Positions 10,422-25,958 of a stretch of DNA of 38,422 bases are shown in pieces. The translations under genes were made by a program, and so were the position numbers. Location: NCBI GenBank assembly GCA_017420185.1, contig JAFOJM010000007.1, forward strand, positions 1 through 38,422, given 5' to 3'. How positions within the stretch are numbered: position 1 is the first letter of the stretch; each line of letters opens with the position of its first letter. The notes beneath the pieces were generated by a model, which saw only the letters and a list, made by a program, of their open reading frames with translations, made no database searches and was not told the DNA's origin. The DNA comes from Candidatus Saccharimonadota bacterium. GTDB lineage: Bacteria > Patescibacteriota > Saccharimonadia > Saccharimonadales > Saccharimonadaceae.

Positions 10422-10679
10422 CTAGGCTTTCTTCCATCTTTTTAGCGTGGGGAAAACTTTTGCGCAGTAGTCTTTCATTTGCTCGTTGGTCATACCGGCT
10501 TGCTCACCAAACTGTGAGCATTTGTCGATAAACTCTTCCATGGTGCATTTCTCGACAAACTCGCCGTCTTTGTAACACCACTTGCAGTAATCTTCGTTTT
10601 TGCTGCCGTCTTTTTCGGTGGCAAACATTTCCTCTGAGGTAAGTGGCATTGCACAACTTTGACAGATTTTTTGTTCCAT
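10422..10679 (-). CDS. Putative zinc-ribbon domain protein
   Basis: This encodes 85 residues. CQSCAMPL near residues 7-14 and YCKWCYKDGEF near 32-42 provide four cysteines in a CxxC...CxxC arrangement, and GSKNEDYC plus the C-terminal FPTLKRWKK match the small stand-alone zinc-ribbon family (Pfam zf-ribbon_2 type). Such proteins are common and their partners unknown. ATG 10679 has AAGGA 8 nt upstream, and TGTTATAAT lies about 30 nt further up. The family call is good, the role unknown. Confidence 0.85.
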   Translation of the reverse strand: MEQKICQSCAMPLTSEEMFATEKDGSKNEDYCKWCYKDGEFVEKCTMEEFIDKCSQFGEQAGMTNEQMKDYCAKVFPTLKRWKKA

Positions 10680-11769: not shown

Positions 11770-11797
11770 TTGTGGCCCAGCTAAAGAGTAGTAATTG

Positions 11798-13303
11798 ATG
11801 AATGCGATTAATTGTTTTTTCAAAAAATATGCTGACTATATAGCTTTGTTTGTGCTAAATGCAGCAGAGATGATACTGGAGCTGGTAGCGGCACGGCTAA
11901 TGTCGCCATATTTTGGCAACAGTAATTTTGTATGGACCGCTATTATAGGCATAATATTGCTGGCTATGAGTCTGGGCAACATACTGGGCGGAAAACTCGC
12001 CTCTTGCGGGAGCGCTAGATACTGGGCAAGCTTGCTTTTACTTTTTGCGTCTATTTATATAGCTGCTACTCCACTAGTGGATGCGCCGATTTTGAAATCC
12101 GTCAAGGACGTGGGACTAGGCACACAATTTTCTTCGGTGATAAGTAGTGCTATATTCTTTCTTTTGCCGTCTACGATACTAGGCATCATTACTCCTATCA
12201 TCATGAAAGAGCGAATCGGCGACGGCAAAGACAAAGGTAAAGAGTCTGGGCGCATCACAGCCATAATTGCAATAGGGAGTCTGACGGGTACTTTCTTGGG
12301 TGGATTCTTGCTAATACCAGCACTAGGGACCAAAATGATCTTTGCCTTGCTAGGCGCGGTGATTATTCCTACGGTATTACTGCTGAGACCTCTGTCTGCA
12401 ACTAGATCCGGCAAGCTCCAATGGGGACTGGTGGCGACCCTAGCTATTGCAGCGACCGTAAGTATTGTATCGGTAGCAACAGTAAATGACGACACCGCGA
12501 AGGTGGCAAACATAAGCGTTGACACCGAATATGGCAGAATAATTATAGAGGAGGGCACCCGCAATGGAGAGCCAGTACTATATTACAAGCAAAGTGGCGC
12601 GTATTCTTCGGCTACTTACTTAGACGACGATCGTAAATTTGATCTGGTGTTTGATTATCTTAAAAAATACGATTTGATGCTAGATTTTGTGGATGCAAAA
12701 CAAGTAGCGATGATAGGCGGGGCGGCCTACCAATATCCAAAATATTTTATTTCGCATTTTCCCGACAAGACTATGGATGTGATAGAGATTGACCCCAAGT
12801 CTACAGAGATTGCACGGAAATATTTCTTTTTGGATGATTTGATTCATACTTATGGCGAAGATAGGCTGGGGCTATACAATGAAGATGGTAGGATTTTCTT
12901 ATCAAATAGCGATAAAAAATACGACGCCATCCTAAACGATGCTTTTTCTGGCGAGGTGCCAGTAGGAACGCTAGCTACGGTGGAGGCCGCCGAGACGATC
13001 AAGCAAAGTTTGGTGCCAAATGGCGTATATATGTCAAATGTGCTAGGAGCGGTAAGTGGTGACAAGGGCAAGTTCTTACGGGCAGAGGTAAAGACCTTGA
13101 TGAAAGTTTTTGACTATGTATATGTGGTGCCGGTGCACGAAAACTCCACAAGTGCTCAATACGTAAACTGGCTGGTGATAGCCACAGACAACAAGTACCG
13201 GCCACAAACAGCGATAGATATAGAGATAGGCGACGATGACATCGTATTGACAGATGACTACAACCCTGTAGATAGTTTGGTATCTACAGGGTATCATGAT
13301 TAG
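11798..13303 (+). CDS. Membrane-anchored spermidine synthase-like protein
   Basis: This encodes 501 residues from ATG 11798 (a TTG immediately upstream is not needed). The N-terminal 215 residues contain about seven hydrophobic helices (FVWTAIIGIILLAMSLGNIL; FSSVISSAIFFLLPSTILGI). The C-terminal 260 residues form a Rossmann methyltransferase-like fold: VAMIGGAAYQYPKYF, DVIEIDPKSTEIARKYF, EDGRIFLSN and YDAILNDAFSG, as in polyamine synthases. Fused membrane/SpeE-like proteins are widespread and often of unproven substrate; spermidine synthesis is only one possibility. It ends in a 12-bp hairpin and faces the envelope operon four bases away. Confidence 0.85.
   Translation: MNAINCFFKKYADYIALFVLNAAEMILELVAARLMSPYFGNSNFVWTAIIGIILLAMSLGNILGGKLASCGSARYWASLLLLFASIYIAATPLVDAPILKSVKDVGLGTQFSSVISSAIFFLLPSTILGIITPIIMKERIGDGKDKGKESGRITAIIAIGSLTGTFLGGFLLIPALGTKMIFALLGAVIIPTVLLLRPLSATRSGKLQWGLVATLAIAATVSIVSVATVNDDTAKVANISVDTEYGRIIIEEGTRNGEPVLYYKQSGAYSSATYLDDDRKFDLVFDYLKKYDLMLDFVDAKQVAMIGGAAYQYPKYFISHFPDKTMDVIEIDPKSTEIARKYFFLDDLIHTYGEDRLGLYNEDGRIFLSNSDKKYDAILNDAFSGEVPVGTLATVEAAETIKQSLVPNGVYMSNVLGAVSGDKGKFLRAEVKTLMKVFDYVYVVPVHENSTSAQYVNWLVIATDNKYRPQTAIDIEIGDDDIVLTDDYNPVDSLVSTGYHD
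13263..13292. terminator. 12-bp hairpin in the 3' end of the synthase gene
   Basis: ACCCTGTAGATA-GTTTGG-TATCTACAGGGT is a perfect stem lying inside the last codons of the plus-strand gene, just beyond the end of the convergent minus-strand operon. It could stop transcription from both sides, although there is no long T-run. Confidence 0.5.
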
Positions 13304-13307
13304 CCGC

Positions 13308-13817
13308 TTATTTGCTGTTGTAGTAGGAGTGTCCGGACTTGCCTGGGGTGTATGTTGGGTCTAGCTGAATAGCCTGAGAGTCACTAACGAGTCTAACTTC
13401 ACCAGTGCTGCTAGTACATTCGTTGTCGTCGTACGGATTTTTGTTGTACGATGTTACATCCCTACAGTGCCACAATATTTTGGTACCTTCTGCAATGATT
13501 TTATCAACCGGCTCGGTGGTGATTTCTGTGCGAACTGGATCGCGTTTGATTTCTTTCCCTTTTTCATATGTGACGCTATAGGTATATGTCTTTACGCCAG
13601 GCTTACCAGCTTCTCGTACTACAGTCTTGCCGTATTCTACGGATGAATCTTTGACGGTGATAGTATTGTACGGAATAGACTCAGTGGTAGTCTCTTCTTT
13701 TACTACTGTTGATGGTGCGGCAGAAAAACATATACCGGCAATAGCAACAGTACCAAGTAGCGCCAATGTGATACCTGCGAATGCGCGTCTTGTGGACTTG
13801 CTTTTTGTATTACTCAT
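13308..13817 (-). CDS. Membrane-anchored G5-domain protein
   Basis: This encodes 169 residues. One hydrophobic helix at about 13-32 (FAGITLALLGTVAIAGICFS) acts as a signal or anchor. Residues about 38-112 follow the G5 domain: ESIPYNTITVKDSSVEYGKT, VREAGKPGVKTYTY, then PVDKIIAEGTK. G5 domains bind polysaccharide in cell-wall proteins of Gram-positive bacteria. The tail has two cysteine-bearing segments. An AAGGAG site lies directly before ATG 13817, and the gene starts 8 nt after the preceding stop. It is the last gene of the five-gene envelope operon. Confidence 0.8.
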   Translation of the reverse strand: MSNTKSKSTRRAFAGITLALLGTVAIAGICFSAAPSTVVKEETTTESIPYNTITVKDSSVEYGKTVVREAGKPGVKTYTYSVTYEKGKEIKRDPVRTEITTEPVDKIIAEGTKILWHCRDVTSYNKNPYDDNECTSSTGEVRLVSDSQAIQLDPTYTPGKSGHSYYNSK

Positions 13818-13825
13818 AGTTCTCC

Positions 13826-14617
13826 TTATTTACTTTCCTTTTCAGATTTTTCTCTAGCAAGTGCCCTATTGTACATATCGTCCATATGGTCTGGCTCTGT
13901 AGTGACAGCCATTTTGGCTTCGCAGAGAGACTTTACAGACTGGTTGTAATGCGCGACGTTGCTTAGCACGCTATTTTTGGACTGCTTGAGCCTCTCGGCA
14001 TAGCCTGGATAGAGTGCTAGCTTAGATACGCCGTTGATAATATAGGCTCTGCGGTCAGCGATTTCGTCGAGTAGCTTGTTGTACTCGTATTTCGCCATCA
14101 TGTATTCGTACAATTTGGCATTGGTGAGCTGCTTGGTGGCGGCATATGTCATAAAGCCCGTACCGATGTAGAGCAAAATCTGTAATCCGCCCATAACTAC
14201 ATTTTGCTGCAGTAGGAAATTCCCCTCCATGGTCTCGATATTCTTAAGATCTAGGCCTATACGTAGCCAAGCTAGATATATGCCTACTACCAACCATATA
14301 GCAATTTCTATGGTCTTGGTTTTGTATTTTACCTTTGTGTTGGCGCTCTGATAGCCAATTGCAGCCATAGAGAAGAAACATACCATACCAGTGATGATGG
14401 ATATTACTAGTGCACGAGGGTCATTTTTATCTACACTCATAACCTGGGCTAGAGAGTTATTGAGAAGTAGAGCGTCCGTAATCTCACTTGCAATCCCTAC
14501 AAGTAAGAAAATAACACTGACCCACGGAAAATGAATCCCATAATCACCGCCGTCTAAGCGTGGCTGCTCATCTTCTGGAGTAGTTGTAGTTGTAGTTTTT
14601 TTGCGAAAAATACTCAT
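13826..14617 (-). CDS. Four-helix membrane protein of the envelope operon
   Basis: This encodes 263 residues from ATG 14617, which shares its A with the TAA of the preceding gene (TAATG) and has GGAGA upstream; an ATG five codons earlier is less likely. After a T-rich, polar start (FRKKTTTTTTPEDEQPRLDG) there are about four hydrophobic segments (VSVIFLLVGIASEITDALLL; LVISIITGMVCFFSMAAIGY; IEIAIWLVVGIYLAWLRIGL; GGLQILLYIGTGFMTYAA), then a helical cytoplasmic tail. No family recognised. Its coupling to its neighbours points to a complex. Confidence 0.75.
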   Translation of the reverse strand: MSIFRKKTTTTTTPEDEQPRLDGGDYGIHFPWVSVIFLLVGIASEITDALLLNNSLAQVMSVDKNDPRALVISIITGMVCFFSMAAIGYQSANTKVKYKTKTIEIAIWLVVGIYLAWLRIGLDLKNIETMEGNFLLQQNVVMGGLQILLYIGTGFMTYAATKQLTNAKLYEYMMAKYEYNKLLDEIADRRAYIINGVSKLALYPGYAERLKQSKNSVLSNVAHYNQSVKSLCEAKMAVTTEPDHMDDMYNRALAREKSEKESK

Positions 14618-15114
14618 TATTTTTTCTCCCATTTTAGATTATCTACTAATTCTTCGTATTTAAGCTTGAGGCTTGCGGAGTCGTCGTAAAGCCTACAGTG
14701 GTCAACAGGGATGGTCGTGTCTGGATCCAAAGCCACAATAGCACGCCTAAGCCGCAGGTCGGCCTCTTTGGCACGCTCCATGAGCTCTTCGTAGCCGGTG
14801 TATTCTGCATAGATTTCGGCTTTGCCGTCCGCATAGAGCTGGTCTAGCTTGTTGGCTTTATTGATGAAGCGGTCTTCGATATTGAAATCTTTTTTGCTAA
14901 ACTTTGAATCTACGTATTGACGAACATAGAAGAGCGCTCTAGGGTCTAAGACTCCTTCTTGCTGTAGGTCGTTTACGGTCTCTTTTTGAAGCGCATCTAA
15001 CTCTTCTTTACTGATAACTTCGAGAGTAGATTTGGGCTTTTCCCATTCAGAAGAATCATCTTCTGAGCCGAAGAAATTCCGTACGATGGGTATCTTTTGT
15101 ATAAAATTATTCAT
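14617..15114 (-). CDS. Soluble helical protein of the envelope operon
   Basis: This encodes 165 residues, acidic and helical, without membrane segments (TLEVISKEELDALQKETVND; EELMERAKEADLRLRRAIVA). The TAA of the upstream gene ends directly before ATG 15114, and GAAAGGAA is the ribosome site inside that gene's end. It overlaps the next gene by one base. It is probably a cytoplasmic partner of the membrane components; no family recognised. Confidence 0.75.
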   Translation of the reverse strand: MNNFIQKIPIVRNFFGSEDDSSEWEKPKSTLEVISKEELDALQKETVNDLQQEGVLDPRALFYVRQYVDSKFSKKDFNIEDRFINKANKLDQLYADGKAEIYAEYTGYEELMERAKEADLRLRRAIVALDPDTTIPVDHCRLYDDSASLKLKYEELVDNLKWEKK

Positions 15115-15984
15115 TTATTTATTCCTTTCTTGAAGATTATTTATCCAGTATTCTGGTGCCATTAGCGAATCTATGACGTATTTGAGGCCATTTTTTTCAA
15201 TGGTTTTGGTGGCAATACGCGCGTAGTTTTCGCTGCGGATTTTGTAGTCTTGTTCTATTTTACTTTTTTGACTAATGTAAGCGATTTCGTGCCTACGAAT
15301 GTCGTCTTCTATGCTGTTGATTCGGATTTTTAGGTCTACTTTTTCTTCGATAAGCGCCTCTAGCTTGTTGCGTTCGGTTTTTCTTTCTCCTTCTAGGTAG
15401 AATTTTTGCGCACCTGTAGCAGCTCGGCTCAGCCTTTTGCTGATTTCTCCTAGTTTGTCTTCACTTGTGCGAATTTGCAAGGAAACTTTACCGATAGCTT
15501 CGTTGGTGTTGTCTAGGTCTTTTTTGAGTCCGCTGCAGATTTCTGCGTATTCTTCGGCGATTTTAACAAGTAGTGCGTTTCTGGAGACGACTAGTTGCTC
15601 CATGTATTTGGTATAGACGTGGTAGTTCCAGCGGCCATCGGGCTCTTTTTCGCGAAGATATACTTTCCAGTTTTTGATACCGTGCTGTTTGCCGTAATCT
15701 TGATTGATAAGTTTTCTATCTATGCGGCCATGGTATATATCTTTCCAGATACAGTGGTAAGCTATGGCGCCTTCGTATTTGGTAGACTCAACAATGAATA
15801 CTATTATTGGCACGATAACAAGGACAAAGACGATAAATATACTCCAGCTGCCGTTCATGACGCCTAGATTGTATAGTAGGATGCCCGTAAATAAATCTAT
15901 GAGGATAGCTATAGCAGTACAAAACACGATATTGAAGGTTTTGTTGTGCGCAATATAGTTGCTGTATTGTGAATATTCAATCAT
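15115..15984 (-). CDS. Two-helix membrane protein with long coiled coil
   Basis: This encodes 289 residues. Two hydrophobic helices lie near residues 17-40 (IVFCTAIAILIDLFTGILLY) and 47-66 (WSIFIVFVLVIVPIIVFIVE), followed by a large cytoplasmic domain. Residues about 140-250 are charged heptad-like helices (EAIGKVSLQIRTSEDKLGEI; GERKTERNKLEALIEEKVDL). AGAGGA precedes ATG 15984, one base after the stop of the OmpA-like gene. The layout recalls stator-type or secretion-scaffold proteins, but I recognise no family. Confidence 0.75.
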   Translation of the reverse strand: MIEYSQYSNYIAHNKTFNIVFCTAIAILIDLFTGILLYNLGVMNGSWSIFIVFVLVIVPIIVFIVESTKYEGAIAYHCIWKDIYHGRIDRKLINQDYGKQHGIKNWKVYLREKEPDGRWNYHVYTKYMEQLVVSRNALLVKIAEEYAEICSGLKKDLDNTNEAIGKVSLQIRTSEDKLGEISKRLSRAATGAQKFYLEGERKTERNKLEALIEEKVDLKIRINSIEDDIRRHEIAYISQKSKIEQDYKIRSENYARIATKTIEKNGLKYVIDSLMAPEYWINNLQERNK

Positions 15985-15985
15985 A

Positions 15986-17200
15986 TTAGTCCTCTAGAAC
16001 TTCTAGAATTACCGTCCTGTGTTCGACAGCTACACCGGTGTCACCACAGTAAGGTATTTCTTCGCGGTCATCTTGCGGGCCATCCACACCATTGACGGTA
16101 ATTTTGGACGTATCTACGTGTAACTCGCTCAAGATGTTGCGGATAACAGTAGCTCTATCGATACTTAGCTGGGTACCTTTGCCCTCTCCACATTTGGTCT
16201 GATAACCAGTGAGCTTGATACGCACCCCTGTGGTATCGTTGAAATTTTTGGCAAATTCACTGAGAATATCTTTGACTTCGTCGTAATTGATAAGATTGGC
16301 GGTGTTTTTGTCGAACTTTGCGATGTTGGCATTGAGGGAAAATTTGTACCCTGGCTTAAGCTCTCCAGGGACAATGGTAGGGTTGACCCAGTAATCAGTA
16401 GCAACAGACGTAGTGGTGTCACTGATATTGATGGATTTAGGGTTCATGCTGATACCTACATAGCTGAGTGCTGCTATGTAAATATTCTCGGTCTTGTTGA
16501 TTAAGCTCTGGGACAGTGGCAACTGGCCATTTGTTGTAAGCGTTTGTCCGGCCCCGTACCAGATAAGGCTGGTGCGCCCATAATCATTTTGACGGATATT
16601 GGAGTCTGATATTCTACCGGTGATATATTTTTCATCTTTAGACAATAGCCCATCAAAAGCAAAGTTCACAATGCCAGTATCGGATAGGCCTGATCCGTAA
16701 ACTATAATTAGCGGGCTCTCGGCGCCAGTACCTTTGAGGTAGCTAGCAGCTCGCATAATGGCTTCATAATAATTGGCACCACCTTCAGATGGAGATGTCT
16801 TGGCTGCCTCATTTATGCCTTTGATAAGCCTTTTGATTTGGCCTTGCTGATTGGCTTGATTGTGGTCTTTCTTCTCGATATATTTACTTGCTATTTCTAT
16901 AGAATACGGGTTGGCGGTAGCGGAATACATACATACGTTTGGTTTTTTGTCTAGCGGTGTGGCCGTAAATACATCTTTGACGGTTTCTTCAAAATTTTCG
17001 TTACTGAAATCCGGGGCGGGAGAATTAGCAACATTACCAACCACAAAACAAACCGCGTCGTGGTCGGCAGATGGAGACTCTGGGCCTTCGCCGCTTGACG
17101 GAGTCCCGTTTATTGACTTAATGGCAATGATAAGCAACAATATAATAACAACAAAACTAAAGAGCTTGTTGCTTTTCTTCTGCTTACTATGATGGTGCAT
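15986..17200 (-). CDS. Membrane-anchored vWA-like protein with OmpA-like C-terminal domain
   Basis: This encodes 404 residues from ATG 17200 (MHHHSKQKKSNKLF...). That start is chosen for AGAAAGGA 9 nt upstream; ATG 17242 in the same frame is an alternative but lies only 2 nt after a GGAGG. A single hydrophobic helix at about 14-32 is followed by a vWA-like region (DAVCFVVGNVA near 50; SPLIIVYGSGLSDTGIVNFA near 185). From about 285 there is an OmpA-like peptidoglycan-binding domain: FDKNTANLINYDEVKDILSE, VRIKLTGYQTKCGEG, LSIDRATVIRNIL, then EHRTVILEV. It probably ties an inner-membrane assembly to the wall. First gene of the operon. Confidence 0.75.
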   Translation of the reverse strand: MHHHSKQKKSNKLFSFVVIILLLIIAIKSINGTPSSGEGPESPSADHDAVCFVVGNVANSPAPDFSNENFEETVKDVFTATPLDKKPNVCMYSATANPYSIEIASKYIEKKDHNQANQQGQIKRLIKGINEAAKTSPSEGGANYYEAIMRAASYLKGTGAESPLIIVYGSGLSDTGIVNFAFDGLLSKDEKYITGRISDSNIRQNDYGRTSLIWYGAGQTLTTNGQLPLSQSLINKTENIYIAALSYVGISMNPKSINISDTTTSVATDYWVNPTIVPGELKPGYKFSLNANIAKFDKNTANLINYDEVKDILSEFAKNFNDTTGVRIKLTGYQTKCGEGKGTQLSIDRATVIRNILSELHVDTSKITVNGVDGPQDDREEIPYCGDTGVAVEHRTVILEVLED

Positions 17201-17371
17201 ATTGTATAATCCTTTCTTTAAGATAGGTAATGCATAGTGCATTACCTCCGTTAACCCGTAACGGGCATGCCGCCAAAACCCCTATCAGATATCGCCATGA
17301 GACTATCTGACTAGGAATAAGTGCAGCCCCTTACTTAATTCCATTATACCACATAATTCATAAAAAGTCAA
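17201..17371 (-). promoter_or_regulatory. Promoter and structured leader of the envelope operon
   Basis: Minus strand TTGACT (17371-17366), 17-nt spacer ending TGG, TATAAT (17348-17343), then about 140 nt to ATG 17200. Stems on the transcript: GGAA.TAAGT...ACTTATTCC, TCAGATA...TATCTGA, CCGTTA-CGGGT-TAACGG, and a perfect GGTAATGCA-CTA-TGCATTACC. The last stem contains ATG 17242 and a five-codon ORF (MHYLS) with GGAGG nine bases upstream. The arrangement suggests control of translation. No known riboswitch recognised. Confidence 0.65.
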
Positions 17372-18006: not shown

Positions 18007-19050
18007 ATGAAAATACTTGGCATAGAGACTAGTTGCGACGAGACAGCCGCTGCTGTAGTGCAAGATGGGACGGAGATTCTGTCAAACGTAGTAGTGAGCC
18101 AGATAGATATATTTGCCGAGTATGGCGGCGTGATACCAGAAGTAGCAGCTAGAAGCCATCTAGAAGCGATGATGCCAGTGATAAGAAAGGCTTTGGCGGA
18201 TGCTGAGTGCACCTGGGACGACATAAATGCAATAGCCGTGACTCACGCGCCAGGGCTACTGGGGTCGCTACTTATTGGCACCCTGACGGCACGTACTTTG
18301 GCGATACTGCACGATAAGCCACTATATGCCGTGCATCATCTTAAGTCGCACGTGTATGCGAATTGGCTGACAGGCGGACATGCGCCACAATTTCCTGTCT
18401 TGGCATTGGTAGTGTCTGGCGGGCATACGCAGATACTATATATGCCGGCGCACAATAAGTTTGAGATTGTAGGGACCACGCATGATGATGCCGTAGGGGA
18501 GTGCTTTGACAAGGTAGCGAAAATACTGGGACTACCCTACCCTGGCGGGCCAGCCATAGCCAAGGCGGCGCTTAACGGGGATGCGCATAAGTATAAACTA
18601 CCTCACCCAAAAGTAGCCGGACTTGATTTTTCTTTTTCTGGGCTAAAGACTGCGGTACTGCGAGCCGTACAAAAGGAGCTAGGGCTCCCTATATCACATC
18701 CGTCGTATGATCTAAAAAACCATCTGACGGCTAGCCAGGTGGCGGATTTTGCAGCGAGCTTTCAAAAAACAGCGATAGAGATATTGTGTGAAAAATTGAC
18801 TGCAGCTACGGAGCAGTACCCAGATGTGCAATCTGTAGTAATAGCCGGCGGCGTAAGCGCCAACAGGGCTCTACGGGATGCGCTGCCGGAAGCGTATTTC
18901 CCTACTCCGGCGCTATCTGGCGACAATGGTGCTATGGTGGCAGCAGCGGCATACTACGAGATTGTTTCTGGGGTGGAGCCTACCGACCCATATGCACTAA
19001 ATATCTACCCGAGAATATCGGTAGAAAATACTGGCACTGGGACTATTTGA
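18007..19050 (+). CDS. tsaD: tRNA N6-threonylcarbamoyladenosine transferase TsaD
   Basis: This encodes 347 residues, a normal length. The ASKHA-fold motifs are present: ILGIETSCDETAAAV at the N-terminus, HHLKSHVYANW near 105-115 with the HxxxH-type metal ligands, VVSGGHTQIL, DDAVGECFDKVAKILGLPYP, DFSFSGLKTAV and VIAGGVSANRALR. With TsaB, TsaC and TsaE (not in the window) it makes t6A37 in ANN-decoding tRNAs. The gene ends in TGA and overlaps the convergent helicase reading frame by 8 nt. Confidence 0.97.
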   Translation: MKILGIETSCDETAAAVVQDGTEILSNVVVSQIDIFAEYGGVIPEVAARSHLEAMMPVIRKALADAECTWDDINAIAVTHAPGLLGSLLIGTLTARTLAILHDKPLYAVHHLKSHVYANWLTGGHAPQFPVLALVVSGGHTQILYMPAHNKFEIVGTTHDDAVGECFDKVAKILGLPYPGGPAIAKAALNGDAHKYKLPHPKVAGLDFSFSGLKTAVLRAVQKELGLPISHPSYDLKNHLTASQVADFAASFQKTAIEILCEKLTAATEQYPDVQSVVIAGGVSANRALRDALPEAYFPTPALSGDNGAMVAAAAYYEIVSGVEPTDPYALNIYPRISVENTGTGTI

Positions 19051-20764
19051 TATCCTGAAAATCTATTTTGAGGAGTTTTTTGATGATACGGTGCAAATCT
19101 CCCTCTGGAATGCCGCCTAGGTCCGTGATGATTTTTGTCATGGCGGCGGCATCTAATGAAGCGATGATGGTGAGACAATGTTTGGTGCGACTCGAGGCTA
19201 CATAAAAAACATTTTTGGCATTGTCGTCTTTGAATGAATCTTCATCGAAATCTATCATAATGACCACGTCACTCTCGAGGCCTTTGTATTTGCGGGCTGT
19301 AGTGAATAGTATTCCTTCTCCATCGAGCTCATTTGTTAGGCGGTAGCCTCCGACTGATTCCCTGCCGGCCAGGATGGATTTTTGTAGAGTTTTGAGAGTG
19401 AGGATGGTGATTTGACTGCGCTTGAAGCCTTTTTCGGTGGTGTAGAAGCGGATAGTTTCGGCTATACCCTCAATGGCTCTCTCTATGGATGGGTAGTTGT
19501 TTAGGCAAGGTGTGTCCCCGCTGATTTATTGGGCCAGTATTACATTATCTATAGCTACGGGAGAATAAGCTGTGCTTGCAATCTCAAAGGTATTGCGGCA
19601 GTTTTTGCTAAGCACTAGCTGACAGTCTAGCTTTTTGAGCCAATTGATGGTGCTTTGGTCCCATTTGTGAACTAGCTGATTTTTGTCGTAGAAGACATAA
19701 AAATACCCGCCGGCCGCCTTGGTGATGTCTAGCAAAAATTCTAGGTGGTCTGCCGCGAAATCTTGGCCTTCGTCTATAATGATATGGTCAAACTGGTAAT
19801 TGTCACTAAATGAGTTTAATAGAAAATTTGTTATTGCTTCTGGCTCGGCATTTTCGTAGCCACCGGCTTTGGCATAGAGCTGATTAAGATTAGCGAAAGT
19901 GACATTGGGGAGCTCATCGGAGAAATTGTCCCTAAGATACTGGAGAATCAGCTTGTTGAAGCAAAGGAATAATATACTAGCGTCCTTGGGTAGGCGCCTG
20001 GCGCACTCTAGGGCTATCATGGTTTTACCAGTACCACTAGCACCGTGAATACCTGCAGTGCGCTGCTCTACTAGATAATCTAGCAGGCCAGCTTGCTCGC
20101 GCGTGAGCTGATTGAACAAGAAATCTCGCTCCTGGAGCTCTGATGAGATACTAGGTACGATACGAAAAGTAGGGGCAAAAACTTTGATTACGTCTTCTAT
20201 GAGCTGCTTGGGAGAGCCAGCGATAGCCTTGCCCTTGATACCGTTGCCACTGAATGCACGATTGATAGCCGCTTCTGGGCTGAAAAGGTCTGATTCGGTG
20301 AAAGTATTTGAGGATTGATATTCGGACGAGAGCTTTCCGCGGATTTCGGAACCTTTGATATCTGGGAACCAAACTGTAGGGATAATTTTGTAATTACTCA
20401 CCGCGGCATTAGGCGACTCCTCTAGGAGTGCACCAAAGCGATCTACGCTGCGCCATGCTTGGTCTAGTGGTGAGCATTTGAGTGGGTGCTCTACGCTGTC
20501 GCGATTTATAGAATACCATTGGCCGTCACGGTCACGCTTGATGCCGCCCCCCTTGACTTCTATTACCAAAAAACCTCGCGCGGGGTCAAAGACTAGAAAA
20601 TCCGCCTCGCCTTTTTGGTAGTGACCTTGGCGCTCGTTGCCCCATTTGACTGAGTAAAAAACACAGTAAGAGTCTGGAAGTTTTTTGAATGAGCTGTAGA
20701 CTCTCTTTTCGCCATTACTACCGTGATATTCGCCTGTTTGCCCTACTGGGATAAATATTGCCAT
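19043..20764 (-). pseudogene. NERD-domain UvrD-like helicase interrupted by an in-frame TAA
   Basis: From ATG 20764 the frame codes for 412 residues, stops at TAA 19528-19526, and continues in the same frame without another stop to 19043 (573 codons in all plus the TAA). The first part has a NERD nuclease-like domain (GEADFLVFDPARGFLVIEVK), Walker A GIHGASGTGKT, motif II IIIDEGQDF and a motif IV-like LSKNCRNTFEIAS. The part after the TAA carries motif V (FTTARKYKGLESDVVIM) and motif VI (FYVASSRTKHCLTII). The two pieces are clearly one helicase. A recent nonsense mutation, an assembly error or readthrough are the options. AAGGG precedes the start, with TATAAT 20 nt above. Confidence 0.85.
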
Positions 20765-22184: not shown

Positions 22185-25100
22185 CTACCTAGCTACGCAC
22201 CGCAACGGGAGGCTGCCAGCCCTATCGCTGCTAATCTGAGGGGACAGATTGCCATAGGCATTGAAATAGATTTCGTACGAATTGCCATTGTTATAAACCA
22301 CGCTAGACCAATAGTACCCGAATTTACCTACGTAGCCCGAGCTGCCATTCCAGTGGCCACCATATACGAAATAGGTAGGGCTGTTCTGGATATTACCGCT
22401 GGTGCCAGAAGTGAAGCCTTGGGCGTTTGCTAGGTTTTGATAAGACTTATCACCGCTATAGGTAGGTAATCTCCAGCCGGCAGGGCAGATAGATTGGTTT
22501 ACGTCTGTATCATATGTAGTATAAGAGCTGGAGCTATTCATAGCTACAGCAGCAGTCCAGTTATAGTAGTTACCTACATGATAGTGGGTACCACCAGACG
22601 TAGCAGATGGATCTGATACTGTCATGTTGCTAAGAGTGCCACCACTAGTAGTTACATTGCCATTCCAGTAAAGATTGCCTGGGTTGTAGGAGAATGGGGC
22701 GGTAGTAGAGCTAGTCCAGCTAGAAGTGGTGCTAGTAGATACAGTAGGTGTCCAGGTAGTGCCAATAGTAGAATTAGCTAGGTCTGTATCTGCACTAGTG
22801 TAGGTCCTGCCGGCTTCTATGTCTAGGTCTAGGTTTTGAGCCATCCAGATGTTACCATCAGCAAGCTTGGCCACCCAATAGGTTTTGCCATCACGATTAT
22901 CTATTGCTTGCATAGGATCCCCCTCATTCAACGTACTCTTCCAATTAGCAATATCTTGCATATATGGTGCCCTTTTCCACTGTGCATATAGAATAATACT
23001 GGCCACCCCGTCCCCCGCAGAAAACTCCTGCCTATTGGTATACGTTATGCCGCTTCCATCCCTTTCTGTGTTCCAACTAGCAAGGTTGTACCCATTTTTA
23101 GTAAACCCATTCTGGCTCAGAGGCGCTGTTGTATTTTCTCCTATACCTTGTTCCGCCATCTCCCCACCATCATTCCCATTGCCATCAAAGATGATGGTAG
23201 TTTGTATAGGAGCCACGCAGCGTACAGAATATCCACTATACTTATTATTGCTACTTGTACTCACGTAACTATTATAGAGGTATAGGGAGTAAGCACTGCT
23301 AGTACTATTCGCAGTGGATGCCCAATAGTAACCATAGTTACCACGACTACTTGTTTGCGAATTATACCAATACCCAGAATAGATGAAGTTATTTGGGAAA
23401 GAACGCCAGGCATTGGAGCTGTTGCCAAGTAGGTTGTTTAGGTAGTAGAAGCCACCATTAGTATTACCCTTACCATTGTTTGTGTCACCACTACCGCCAT
23501 ATGGTAGTTGCCAACCTGCAGGACAGATGTCGCCTGCTGCTACTTGGTTGCTTGTAGTATCATATGTGCCTCTACCAGCTGTAGCAGAGTACCAGTTGTA
23601 GTAGTTACCATAGGAGTAGAGATTTGTATTGAAGTCACTGGCGTGAGTACCATTTGTGTAGTTCTGGTTAAAGGATGGTGAGGTGGTAGTGGCTGCTACA
23701 TTGTTAGTGTTTAGCTTGGATTGGTTATAACATGGTGTGCTATCGTAATTCGTACACCAACTATTACTTGTAGTAGATAGGAAGTTGCTAGTGGTACCTG
23801 CATTGTAATCGTTAGTAAGTGGCAGGGCTGGGTAATTAGTGTTTTGCTGTGATAGTTCTGAGCTATTATCTAGTCTTAGGTTTTCTATCATCCAGTAGTT
23901 ACCATCTGCTAGTTTAGCTACTGCATATACTTCATTGTCTCTGCTATCTTTTAGTGCTGTTACATAGCCATTTGGTTTGGTAGCTAGTGTAGTACCATCA
24001 GCTAGTTCTGTAGTGAGGAGATCGTCTGTTTGGAAGGTAAGGTCGTCTCCTTGTGAGTCTTTAGCTACTCCTGCCCAGATGGCGTTTAGCTCTAGTTTGC
24101 CTGTCTGGCTCATCCTCTGCTGCATTTCCCTGCCTATAGTAAGTGTTTCATTAGGACCATAGATAGTTACGTCTTCACCATTTGTTAATTTAGTATATGC
24201 ATCTTTGTCTTCGCTCCAGCCTATGAAACCATAGCCTGCACGTTGGTAGTTAGATGCTAGTAGGTCTACTGTTCTACCTGCAGTGGTAAAATCTGTAGTA
24301 TATTGGGTGACATTATTCATATCCGTAGTATCATCTGCGCCATTACCATTGTAGGTGATTTCTATGATTGGATCCCAGATGGCATACATTGTTACTTTTT
24401 CGTCTGGAGAGTTAAATACGTAGTTCGTAAAATCATCTGCACTAGTGTAAGTACCAATTAGTGCATTCTTGTCTGTGCTCCAGCCAAGGAATCTATGTGT
24501 TGTCTCAGTACTTGGTACAGCATAGCTTCCTATGACAGGGTTGTTACCTACTAATGGTACATCATTACCGTCTGCGTCTTGTGCAGTGATTATGGCGTAG
24601 TAGCCATAGCCAGGCTGGGCACAATAACTCTGATAGGAACCATTAGTTGTATAAGCGAATGTCACGGCATCCACGTCACTGAGATCTGTCTCTACATCAT
24701 TGTAACTACCAAATACATATTTACCGTCAGCATTGCCAAAAGTCTTTACTGCAGAAGTATAATTTGCTTTTGCGGTATAGTCTGAATGGGCACCAGACCA
24801 GAAGGTGAAGTAATCATCTTGGTCTGGACCACAAGCACTATCATTACCAGACTGTACTATTTTTACATGAACATTAGTAGCAGTATCTGCAAATCTATAC
24901 ACTGTCGTGGAGTTTAGGTCATATCCATACATACCATCTTGTTCTCCTTCATCATTTACATTTGGCGTATGGGAATAAGCAACTGTCTGAGAAGTAGGTA
25001 CATTTGGGATGTATTTTATTGTATTAGTAGTTTGTTCTTCATTACCATTAAAGTACAATCCATTCCCATCAAAAGTAACTGTAGCTACTGGTGGGTTGGT

Positions 25101-25958
25101 TAGTGCAGTGTAGGTAATGTTACTACCTTCATAGGTACCTTTAGGAGTATCTGGAGTAATGTAGAAGCCATAGTAGATAGTAGTAGTATCATTCTCTTCT
25201 GTTTCTGAATAGTCGTCTATGGATTTTAGGATGGTAGGGTTATCCTGATCCATGGATAAGGCTGTGTAGATATTATCGTCTTTAGTTTCTGGCTTTGTGA
25301 GTGATAGGCCATAGGTGTTGTCTGTGAGAGATACATACTGAGACAAATCTTCTTCATTTATGGCTACCATAGGGATGATGTTAGATTCGTCTGTAGTAGA
25401 TACTAGGTTAGTATCTTCTGCATAGGCAGATAATACGTAGCCAGATGTTGTTGCTTCTTCTACGGTGAGTTCTACTGGTAGATATGCAAAGACTGGTGTA
25501 TCTCCTACTTCTATGGTGAGGTCTTCGCTATTTACGTCTACTGTGAGTTCTGTACCGCCTTCTATGGCACTGGTATTAGTTTTATTACTATTTGCTAGTA
25601 GTATTGCTAATGTACCTACTGAGGCTAGGAGGGCTAGTGCAGATAAGCTAGCAGTGATGCGCTTCCTAGAGCTAAATATTGCCTTGCATTGATCTACTGC
25701 ATGGACTAGCTTTGTCACCTTTCCTTGCTTTTTATGTTTGTTGTAAAGTACTGCTACTACTATTGCTGCAACCGCAAGCAATATGATAGCGCTGATAATA
25801 GTAGCTTCTGGCCCACCTATACCATGCGTAAACAAGCCGGTACTAGGAGCCGTAGGGTCCACTCCTGCACCCGGATCCACTGGTGTAGGCGTGGGCGTAG
25901 GACTGGGCGGCGTGCCCGGCTCTACGATATTAAGTTTGATATTGGTGCTTGCAGCCAT
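22185..25958 (-). CDS. Large surface protein with two Fibrobacter-type paralogous domains and InlB-like repeats
   Basis: This encodes 1257 residues. Start ATG 25958 has GGGAGGT 5 nt upstream. Order: Pro/Thr-rich segment (about 14-30), a hydrophobic helix near 53-73, a second near 100-122, then beta-rich regions. InlB/Listeria-Bacteroides-type repeats appear as TFDGNGLYFNG...GWS near 290-500, ITYNGNGAD...AIWAG, and IIFDGNGNDG...ILYAQWKR. Two Fib_succ_major domains follow the pattern VAKLADGNYWMIENLRLD...CPAGWQLP...YYWAST...SVRCV (about 660-895) and VAKLADGNIWMAQNLDLD...CPAGWRLP...YYWSS...LRCVA (about 1015-1257). It is rich in N, S, T and Y, as expected for an exposed adhesin. It probably faces the host or partner cell. 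Binding partner unknown. Confidence 0.85.
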   Translation of the reverse strand: MAASTNIKLNIVEPGTPPSPTPTPTPVDPGAGVDPTAPSTGLFTHGIGGPEATIISAIILLAVAAIVVAVLYNKHKKQGKVTKLVHAVDQCKAIFSSRKRITASLSALALLASVGTLAILLANSNKTNTSAIEGGTELTVDVNSEDLTIEVGDTPVFAYLPVELTVEEATTSGYVLSAYAEDTNLVSTTDESNIIPMVAINEEDLSQYVSLTDNTYGLSLTKPETKDDNIYTALSMDQDNPTILKSIDDYSETEENDTTTIYYGFYITPDTPKGTYEGSNITYTALTNPPVATVTFDGNGLYFNGNEEQTTNTIKYIPNVPTSQTVAYSHTPNVNDEGEQDGMYGYDLNSTTVYRFADTATNVHVKIVQSGNDSACGPDQDDYFTFWSGAHSDYTAKANYTSAVKTFGNADGKYVFGSYNDVETDLSDVDAVTFAYTTNGSYQSYCAQPGYGYYAIITAQDADGNDVPLVGNNPVIGSYAVPSTETTHRFLGWSTDKNALIGTYTSADDFTNYVFNSPDEKVTMYAIWDPIIEITYNGNGADDTTDMNNVTQYTTDFTTAGRTVDLLASNYQRAGYGFIGWSEDKDAYTKLTNGEDVTIYGPNETLTIGREMQQRMSQTGKLELNAIWAGVAKDSQGDDLTFQTDDLLTTELADGTTLATKPNGYVTALKDSRDNEVYAVAKLADGNYWMIENLRLDNSSELSQQNTNYPALPLTNDYNAGTTSNFLSTTSNSWCTNYDSTPCYNQSKLNTNNVAATTTSPSFNQNYTNGTHASDFNTNLYSYGNYYNWYSATAGRGTYDTTSNQVAAGDICPAGWQLPYGGSGDTNNGKGNTNGGFYYLNNLLGNSSNAWRSFPNNFIYSGYWYNSQTSSRGNYGYYWASTANSTSSAYSLYLYNSYVSTSSNNKYSGYSVRCVAPIQTTIIFDGNGNDGGEMAEQGIGENTTAPLSQNGFTKNGYNLASWNTERDGSGITYTNRQEFSAGDGVASIILYAQWKRAPYMQDIANWKSTLNEGDPMQAIDNRDGKTYWVAKLADGNIWMAQNLDLDIEAGRTYTSADTDLANSTIGTTWTPTVSTSTTSSWTSSTTAPFSYNPGNLYWNGNVTTSGGTLSNMTVSDPSATSGGTHYHVGNYYNWTAAVAMNSSSSYTTYDTDVNQSICPAGWRLPTYSGDKSYQNLANAQGFTSGTSGNIQNSPTYFVYGGHWNGSSGYVGKFGYYWSSVVYNNGNSYEIYFNAYGNLSPQISSDRAGSLPLRCVAR

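Follow-up and report, generated by a model that had tools for sequence, protein, structure and literature searches.

Five closely packed genes in a Saccharibacteria genome encode what looks like a set of envelope proteins, and the question that they raise is whether the set corresponds to an apparatus of a known kind. The genes, here called g1 to g5 and their products proteins 1 to 5, occupy positions 13308-17200 on the minus strand of a 38,422-nucleotide stretch (assembly GCA_017420185.1, contig JAFOJM010000007.1, C2 in our numbering; hereafter the window), and the genome that carries them is 695 kb long and 78% complete. A preliminary description of this DNA had proposed a tight five-gene operon encoding a trans-envelope set, reminiscent of a stator and without a match to any named system. 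The analysis presented here indicates, with near certainty, that g1-g4 are a real, conserved module, and leads to the tentative explanation that this module is a wall-linked membrane platform for one exported partner, which is encoded by the fifth gene.

Conservation of the module and variation of its fifth gene

A profile built from three g1 sequences was used to search 174 genomes of the genus and recovered g1 in 13 of them. The loci were then fetched and every open reading frame (ORF) was scanned with family profiles, which showed g1, g2, g3 and g4 to be adjacent and in constant order at all 13. This count includes genome G023, where an assembly break falls inside g4 and leaves its N-terminus at the end of one contig and its C-terminus at the start of another, the latter being followed directly by a nuclease gene. 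Wider samples at the level of the order (393 genomes), phylum (380) and family (394) added G277, G917, G265, G427, G871 and the very divergent G430, all from the same family. The range of the module is thus the genus and a few sister genera within one Saccharibacteria family; beyond that family, matches to g1 in the order and phylum samples were limited to its OmpA domain. A conserved g1 peptide retrieved 13 loci from 84,980 GTDB species, all of them Saccharibacteria and several from the ruminant gut, in a scan with one short pattern that distant relatives may escape. No relatives were matched in phage and plasmid collections (tblastn with g4) or in IMG/VR (with g1) at the sensitivity used, and these collections therefore give no indication that the module came from a phage or a plasmid.

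Copies of g1 within the genus are only 20-54% identical to one another. Because identities are so low, the constant gene order reflects selection rather than recent descent, and its retention in other Patescibacteria argues that the operon is not a chance arrangement. Across loci, the pairwise identities of g1-g4 co-vary with r values of 0.82-0.96, and with the nuclease the corresponding values are 0.67-0.71. In G265 and G427, moreover, g3 and g4 form a single protein, and as fusion is a common sign of contact, the two would be expected to touch. Together, fusion and co-variation make it likely that the module proteins form one complex. The least constant member is g2, whose two transmembrane helices are confined to one of two subgroups; in G871 it is not recognisable, and a single 169-residue protein of uncertain kinship stands between g1 and g4. 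In the divergent G430 (locus L056, 7399-11455), a g1-like protein with a lipoprotein-type signal in place of the transmembrane anchor is followed by a helical protein with several transmembrane segments, the first of which also contains an Asp.

The fifth position was counted over 18 loci, with G430 left out. At 14 of them, the gene after g4 encodes a staphylococcal-type nuclease (SNase; Pfam E-values of 2e-17 to 5e-24) with one N-terminal transmembrane anchor and, in about half of the cases, a C-terminal segment containing Cys. Alignment to staphylococcal nuclease shows that these proteins retain the equivalents of the catalytic residues Asp21, Arg35, Glu43 and Arg87. SNase genes are present in 19 of the 174 genomes of the genus, namely in 11 of 13 with the module and in 8 of 161 others (Fisher p 7e-11, with genomes taken as independent), and the association between module and nuclease is accordingly strong. 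The two SNases of G213 were considered as possible split copies and rejected as such, since both stand alone; likewise, a match of the SNases to the PADLOC model C3a212 covers the SNase domain only and was not read as evidence for a connection with type III CRISPR.

In the window, by contrast, the fifth gene certainly encodes a G5 domain (Pfam E 2e-21), and this is the only locus with G5 in that position; in G265 the position is taken by a small, Cys- and Asp-rich anchored protein. Since the fifth position varies, the five-gene unit becomes a four-gene unit with a variable exported partner. The tight operon and trans-envelope character of the preliminary description are therefore supported, as is the lack of a named counterpart: Pfam, NCBIfam, PADLOC, and PDB sequence and fold searches assigned no named system to the set, and no paper on the operon was found in a search limited mostly to open-access literature, without bioRxiv preprints. 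Inclusion of the G5 protein as a part of the set, however, did not hold.

Predicted properties of the module proteins

Protein 1 was modelled by AlphaFold with a predicted local distance difference test score (pLDDT) of 83 and a predicted template-modelling score (pTM) of 0.80, and both of its domains are predicted to lie outside the cell. The N-terminal half resembles many VWFA proteins in BFVD by fold (probability up to 0.97, with low TM-scores), whereas the same region has no Pfam VWA match and, when used alone in a PDB profile search, yields chance matches only. Its assignment as a vWA-like domain is thus not a strong one, the proposed fold having been recovered without a match in the sequence libraries. 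Alignments further show that the DxSxS motif of the metal ion-dependent adhesion site (MIDAS) is replaced by GNxxNSP, while GSG and Asp174 are invariant; the domain is therefore without the metal site.

The C-terminal half is certainly an OmpA-like domain, as judged from both family profile and fold. It matches YiaD in a PDB profile search (E 1e-9), reaches a structural Z of about 13 to MotB and OmpA domains, and has MotB, Bacillus subtilis MotS and ZorB among its closest folds; Pfam OmpA matches occur in 16 of 18 g1 relatives. In OmpA-type domains, the Asp of the GHTD motif and a conserved Arg contact diaminopimelate. In protein 1, Arg349 is invariant and there is a Cys pair (337/385), but the canonical Asp is absent: the window reads TGYQTK, and no aligned relative has an Asp at this position. 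The fold proposed in the preliminary description is thus confirmed and the proposed wall binding weakened, and the domain may instead bind a wall of different composition, or a protein.

The model of protein 4 (pLDDT 77, monomer pTM 0.57) places helices at residues 32-60, 67-93, 99-127 and 134-164, ahead of the long terminal helix; hydropathy alone had called three. Among 17 aligned sequences the invariant residues are Asp48 in the first transmembrane helix, Gly88, Trp108, and Tyr150, Thr153 and Gly154 in the fourth. A buried, invariant Asp and Thr might serve in the passage of ions or protons, or else in keeping the helices together. A PDB profile search with protein 4 found no stator and no other sequence match, and fold searches gave no significant match, the Foldseek/VIA list being composed of generic helical proteins with Z under 8; the absence of stators from this list proves nothing alone. 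No credible match to g1-g5, whether to Zorya or to other catalogued defence systems, was found among the PADLOC component models, and a partial match of g2 to CARF_TM (E 0.0025, 16 bits) was taken as chance. The module contributes three families of membrane or cytoplasmic proteins without a known relative.

A proposed platform for a surface nuclease and its alternatives

We infer the contacts between the proteins, and their physiological role, as follows. Protein 4 would be the hub in the membrane, to which protein 3 and protein 2, with its coiled coil, would attach from the cytoplasm. Protein 1 would extend outward from its single transmembrane helix, with the metal-free vWA-like domain available for protein contacts and the OmpA-like domain facing the cell wall. 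The exported tool would be the fifth protein, usually a membrane-anchored thermonuclease, and the platform would then usually serve to hold this nuclease, or to control it, while it degrades nucleic acid at the cell surface, most plausibly with a supply of nucleotides for salvage as the gain. Nucleotide supply appears the likeliest gain because Saccharibacteria are unable to make nucleotides and because DNA uptake by the com system is dispensable for growth in S. epibionticum (PMC10633639). In line with this, the G023 copy has a dCMP deaminase gene 210 nt upstream, and both it and the G193 copy have genes for UDG, thymidine kinase and thymidylate kinase on their downstream side, an arrangement that would fit nucleotide supply. 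Nonetheless, scavenging by the nuclease-bearing copies is a possibility that falls clearly short of being probable. As G5 replaces the nuclease in the window, that copy would do something else or less, and is probably a variant platform with wall or surface binding, and not nucleic-acid cutting, as its output.

Several observations weigh against the platform. Wall binding by protein 1 is uncertain, given the missing Asp, and the case for a single complex is an indirect one. The assembly of the window genome, 78% complete, contains no SNase, and the fifth position is empty in G211 and G427, so that the module cannot be solely a holder of nucleases; conversely, single SNases occur without the module in eight genomes. 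The nucleotide genes may stand in the flanks by chance, and most loci are without them. Finally, only about 7% of the genus carries the module, which cannot therefore be a general nucleotide route.

A structure for adhesion or host contact, in which an episymbiont displays the vWA-like and the G5 or nuclease proteins toward its host and the latter act on host material, is unlikely, although the organisms are indeed epibionts (PMC10633639), vWA-like and G5 domains are frequent among surface proteins, and an accessory, fast-diverging family is what would be expected of surface-exposed parts. A simple adhesin would have no need of cytoplasmic parts such as proteins 2 and 3 and the corresponding half of protein 4, the module proteins contain no large repeat-rich display domain, and the vWA-like domain is without the metal site that MIDAS vWA domains use for adhesion. 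Decidedly unlikely is a further reading, in which the module would be a previously undescribed envelope machine found in Saccharibacteria alone, perhaps driven through the invariant Asp in the first helix of protein 4; it would capture and cut nucleic acid at the surface of the epibiont and hand it on to supply nucleotides, with a nuclease or a G5 protein as its exchangeable outer tool. If the surface nuclease instead cut phage or plasmid DNA on entry, then the patchy distribution, the variable genomic sites, the two divergent variants in one genus and the restriction-modification genes beside the G006 and G188 copies would all fit. Such a barrier defence is nevertheless very unlikely: most copies stand in housekeeping surroundings, the PADLOC matches reduce to the weak, partial CARF_TM hit of g2 and the hit to C3a212 that spans the SNase domain only, and the window copy has no nuclease to cut with.

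The same lack of a nuclease in the window counts against an accessory role in natural transformation, with an entry nuclease like pneumococcal EndA trimming surface DNA for ComEC. The membrane-anchored nuclease is at the surface, as such a role would demand, and com genes are a general feature of the group, whose cultured members are transformable (PMC10633639); yet com genes are widespread and the module is rare, and no com gene was recognised next to the module at the loci inspected, by eye and without a family search. We consider this role highly improbable. Equally remote is a stator or force transducer driven by ions, of the MotAB, ExbBD, TolQR or ZorAB kind, in which protein 1 would be the B subunit that grips the wall and protein 4 the A subunit. 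The attraction of this comparison, drawn already in the preliminary description, lies in the one transmembrane helix and MotB-like OmpA domain of protein 1, and in protein 4 with its four transmembrane helices, a long cytoplasmic helix resembling the ZorA tail, and its invariant Asp and Thr153 in the first and fourth helices. It fails, however, on several counts. Acidic residues are absent from the predicted transmembrane helix of protein 1 in all 18 relatives, where MotB and ZorB have their Asp; the loop between the second and third helices of protein 4 is short, where MotA carries a cytoplasmic domain; protein 4 has no PDB sequence match or significant fold match; and PF01618 (MotA_ExbB) finds nothing in the 18 module-bearing genomes, with matches in 8 of 14 control genomes. 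The module thus shows that the attractive stator reading of a vWA-OmpA operon is one that can be largely excluded.

Locus layout and comparison with known systems

The features of the locus are collected in Table 1. All junctions are of 8 nt or less or overlapping: inspection of the sequence shows a gap of one base between g1 and g2, abutting g2 and g3, an overlap of g3 and g4 at TAATG, and a gap of 8 nt before g5, which is preceded by AAGGAG. The start of g1 is likely to be 17200 and not 17242, because the Shine-Dalgarno spacing at 17242 is not proper and the internal ATG at 17200, which follows AAAGAAAGGATTATACAAT, agrees with the N-termini of relatives.

Table 1. Features of the g1-g5 locus in window coordinates.
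Feature	Positions	Strand	Transmembrane helices	Description
Promoter	17343..17371	minus		TTGACT, 17-nt spacer, TATAAT, TG before -10; 11/12 consensus positions
Structured 5' leader	17201..17342	minus		142 nt; long stem-loop, then 10-bp hairpin GGTAATGCACTATGCATTACC ahead of the ribosome-binding site
g1 ORF as listed	15986-17242	minus		from ORF list; start revised to 17200
g1	15986..17200	minus	1	404 aa; transmembrane helix, then vWA-like, then OmpA-like domain
g1 vWA-like domain (predicted)	16436..17068	minus		residues about 45-255
g1 OmpA-like domain	15989..16354	minus		residues about 283-404
g2	15115..15984	minus	2	289 aa; transmembrane helices, then cytoplasmic coiled-coil
g3	14617..15114	minus	0	165 aa; soluble helical protein
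g4	13826..14617 (ORF 13826-14632)	minus	4	263 aa; transmembrane helices and 73-residue cytoplasmic helix
g5	13308..13817	minus	1	169 aa; transmembrane anchor/signal, one G5 domain, C-terminal segment with two Cys

The promoter is the highest-scoring site of the region, and similar TTGACTTT...TGnTATAAT sites lie ahead of g1 in several relatives. The leader folds much more strongly than shuffled sequences (z -4.26) and matched no Rfam family; its structure was sought at the other module loci and not found, the resemblance being confined to the promoters. Promoter and leader are thus both as the preliminary description had them, but since the leader is specific to the window genome, it lends no support to regulated assembly of the module. 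Within the leader, the hairpin at 17218-17249 (minus strand) contains GGAGG, 9 nt, and ATG CAT TAC CTA TCT TAA, a possible five-codon leader peptide (MHYLS) immediately ahead of the g1 ribosome site.

Genomic context differs between most module loci, and most copies stand among housekeeping genes. In G018, which has no module, a single unrelated gene lies between rlmH and a spermidine-synthase-like gene; the operon occupies the corresponding place in the window, where the synthase gene is inverted relative to G018. As contexts vary and an unrelated gene is found at that place, the module has probably been gained or lost as a unit. The spermidine-synthase-like protein has an N-terminal membrane part (window 11795-13303, plus strand; L082 6309-7814), and its gene is accessory, being present in only three of the other genomes searched. 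A small zinc-ribbon-like protein (KICQSCAMPL...) is encoded near the operon in the window (10422-10679, minus strand) and, in G021, immediately ahead of g1 (L026 7352-7666, plus strand). The divergent module variants of G023 and G193 (L057 159-4103 and L027 3398-5907) adjoin the same three genes, those for UDG, thymidine kinase and thymidylate kinase, which gives the impression of one site at which variants were swapped. Farther along the window, an ORF for a NERD-domain helicase (19526-20764, minus strand; 412 residues) stops early and a separate 74-residue ORF downstream (19043-19267) resembles the end of a UvrD-type helicase, so that the gene appears frameshifted or broken. At 22185-25958 (minus strand) lies a gene for a repetitive surface protein of 1257 residues, with a C-terminal region that by eye is FISUMP-like (Fibrobacter major paralogous type); similar proteins are encoded close to other module copies (L005 128-4666 and L006 5822-6655).

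The known kinds of system that were tested do not fit, and the module is new only in this sense, by exclusion. Like MotAB, ZorAB, ExbBD and TolQR, it pairs a single-pass protein ending in an OmpA-like domain with a multi-pass membrane protein that has a cytoplasmic extension; unlike in these systems, the single-pass protein has no transmembrane Asp and has an added vWA-like domain, and the multi-pass protein is of another topology and without MotA_ExbB homology. Zorya, which requires ion flow, the wall-binding domain of ZorB and the ZorA tail (PMC11890865), has only a general outline in common with the module. The FtsZl1/vWA/OmpA/GTPase operons (Makarova and Koonin 2010, PMC2875224) share with it vWA and OmpA domains and uncharacterised membrane proteins in an envelope operon. 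The module, however, fuses the two domains, has no GTPase among its genes, and lacks the MIDAS that is intact in most vWA domains of those operons (PMC2875224). FtsZ-like Tubulin_2 proteins (PF13809) are absent from the 18 module-bearing genomes, with matches in 3 of 14 controls, and an identity with the FtsZl1-vWA-OmpA system is thereby ruled out.

We know of no four-gene vWA-OmpA module beside mycoplasma SNases or EndA. For the question of how Saccharibacteria acquire nucleotides from host cells, the module offers a defined, deletable gene set in those species, a minority, that have it. The SNase-bearing relatives, although not the nuclease-free window copy, resemble the mycoplasmas with their membrane-bound SNases (PMC12115388) and the pneumococcus with EndA (PMC3764208) in presenting a surface-anchored nuclease, and with the mycoplasmas they further share a reliance on nucleotides from outside the cell (PMC12115388).

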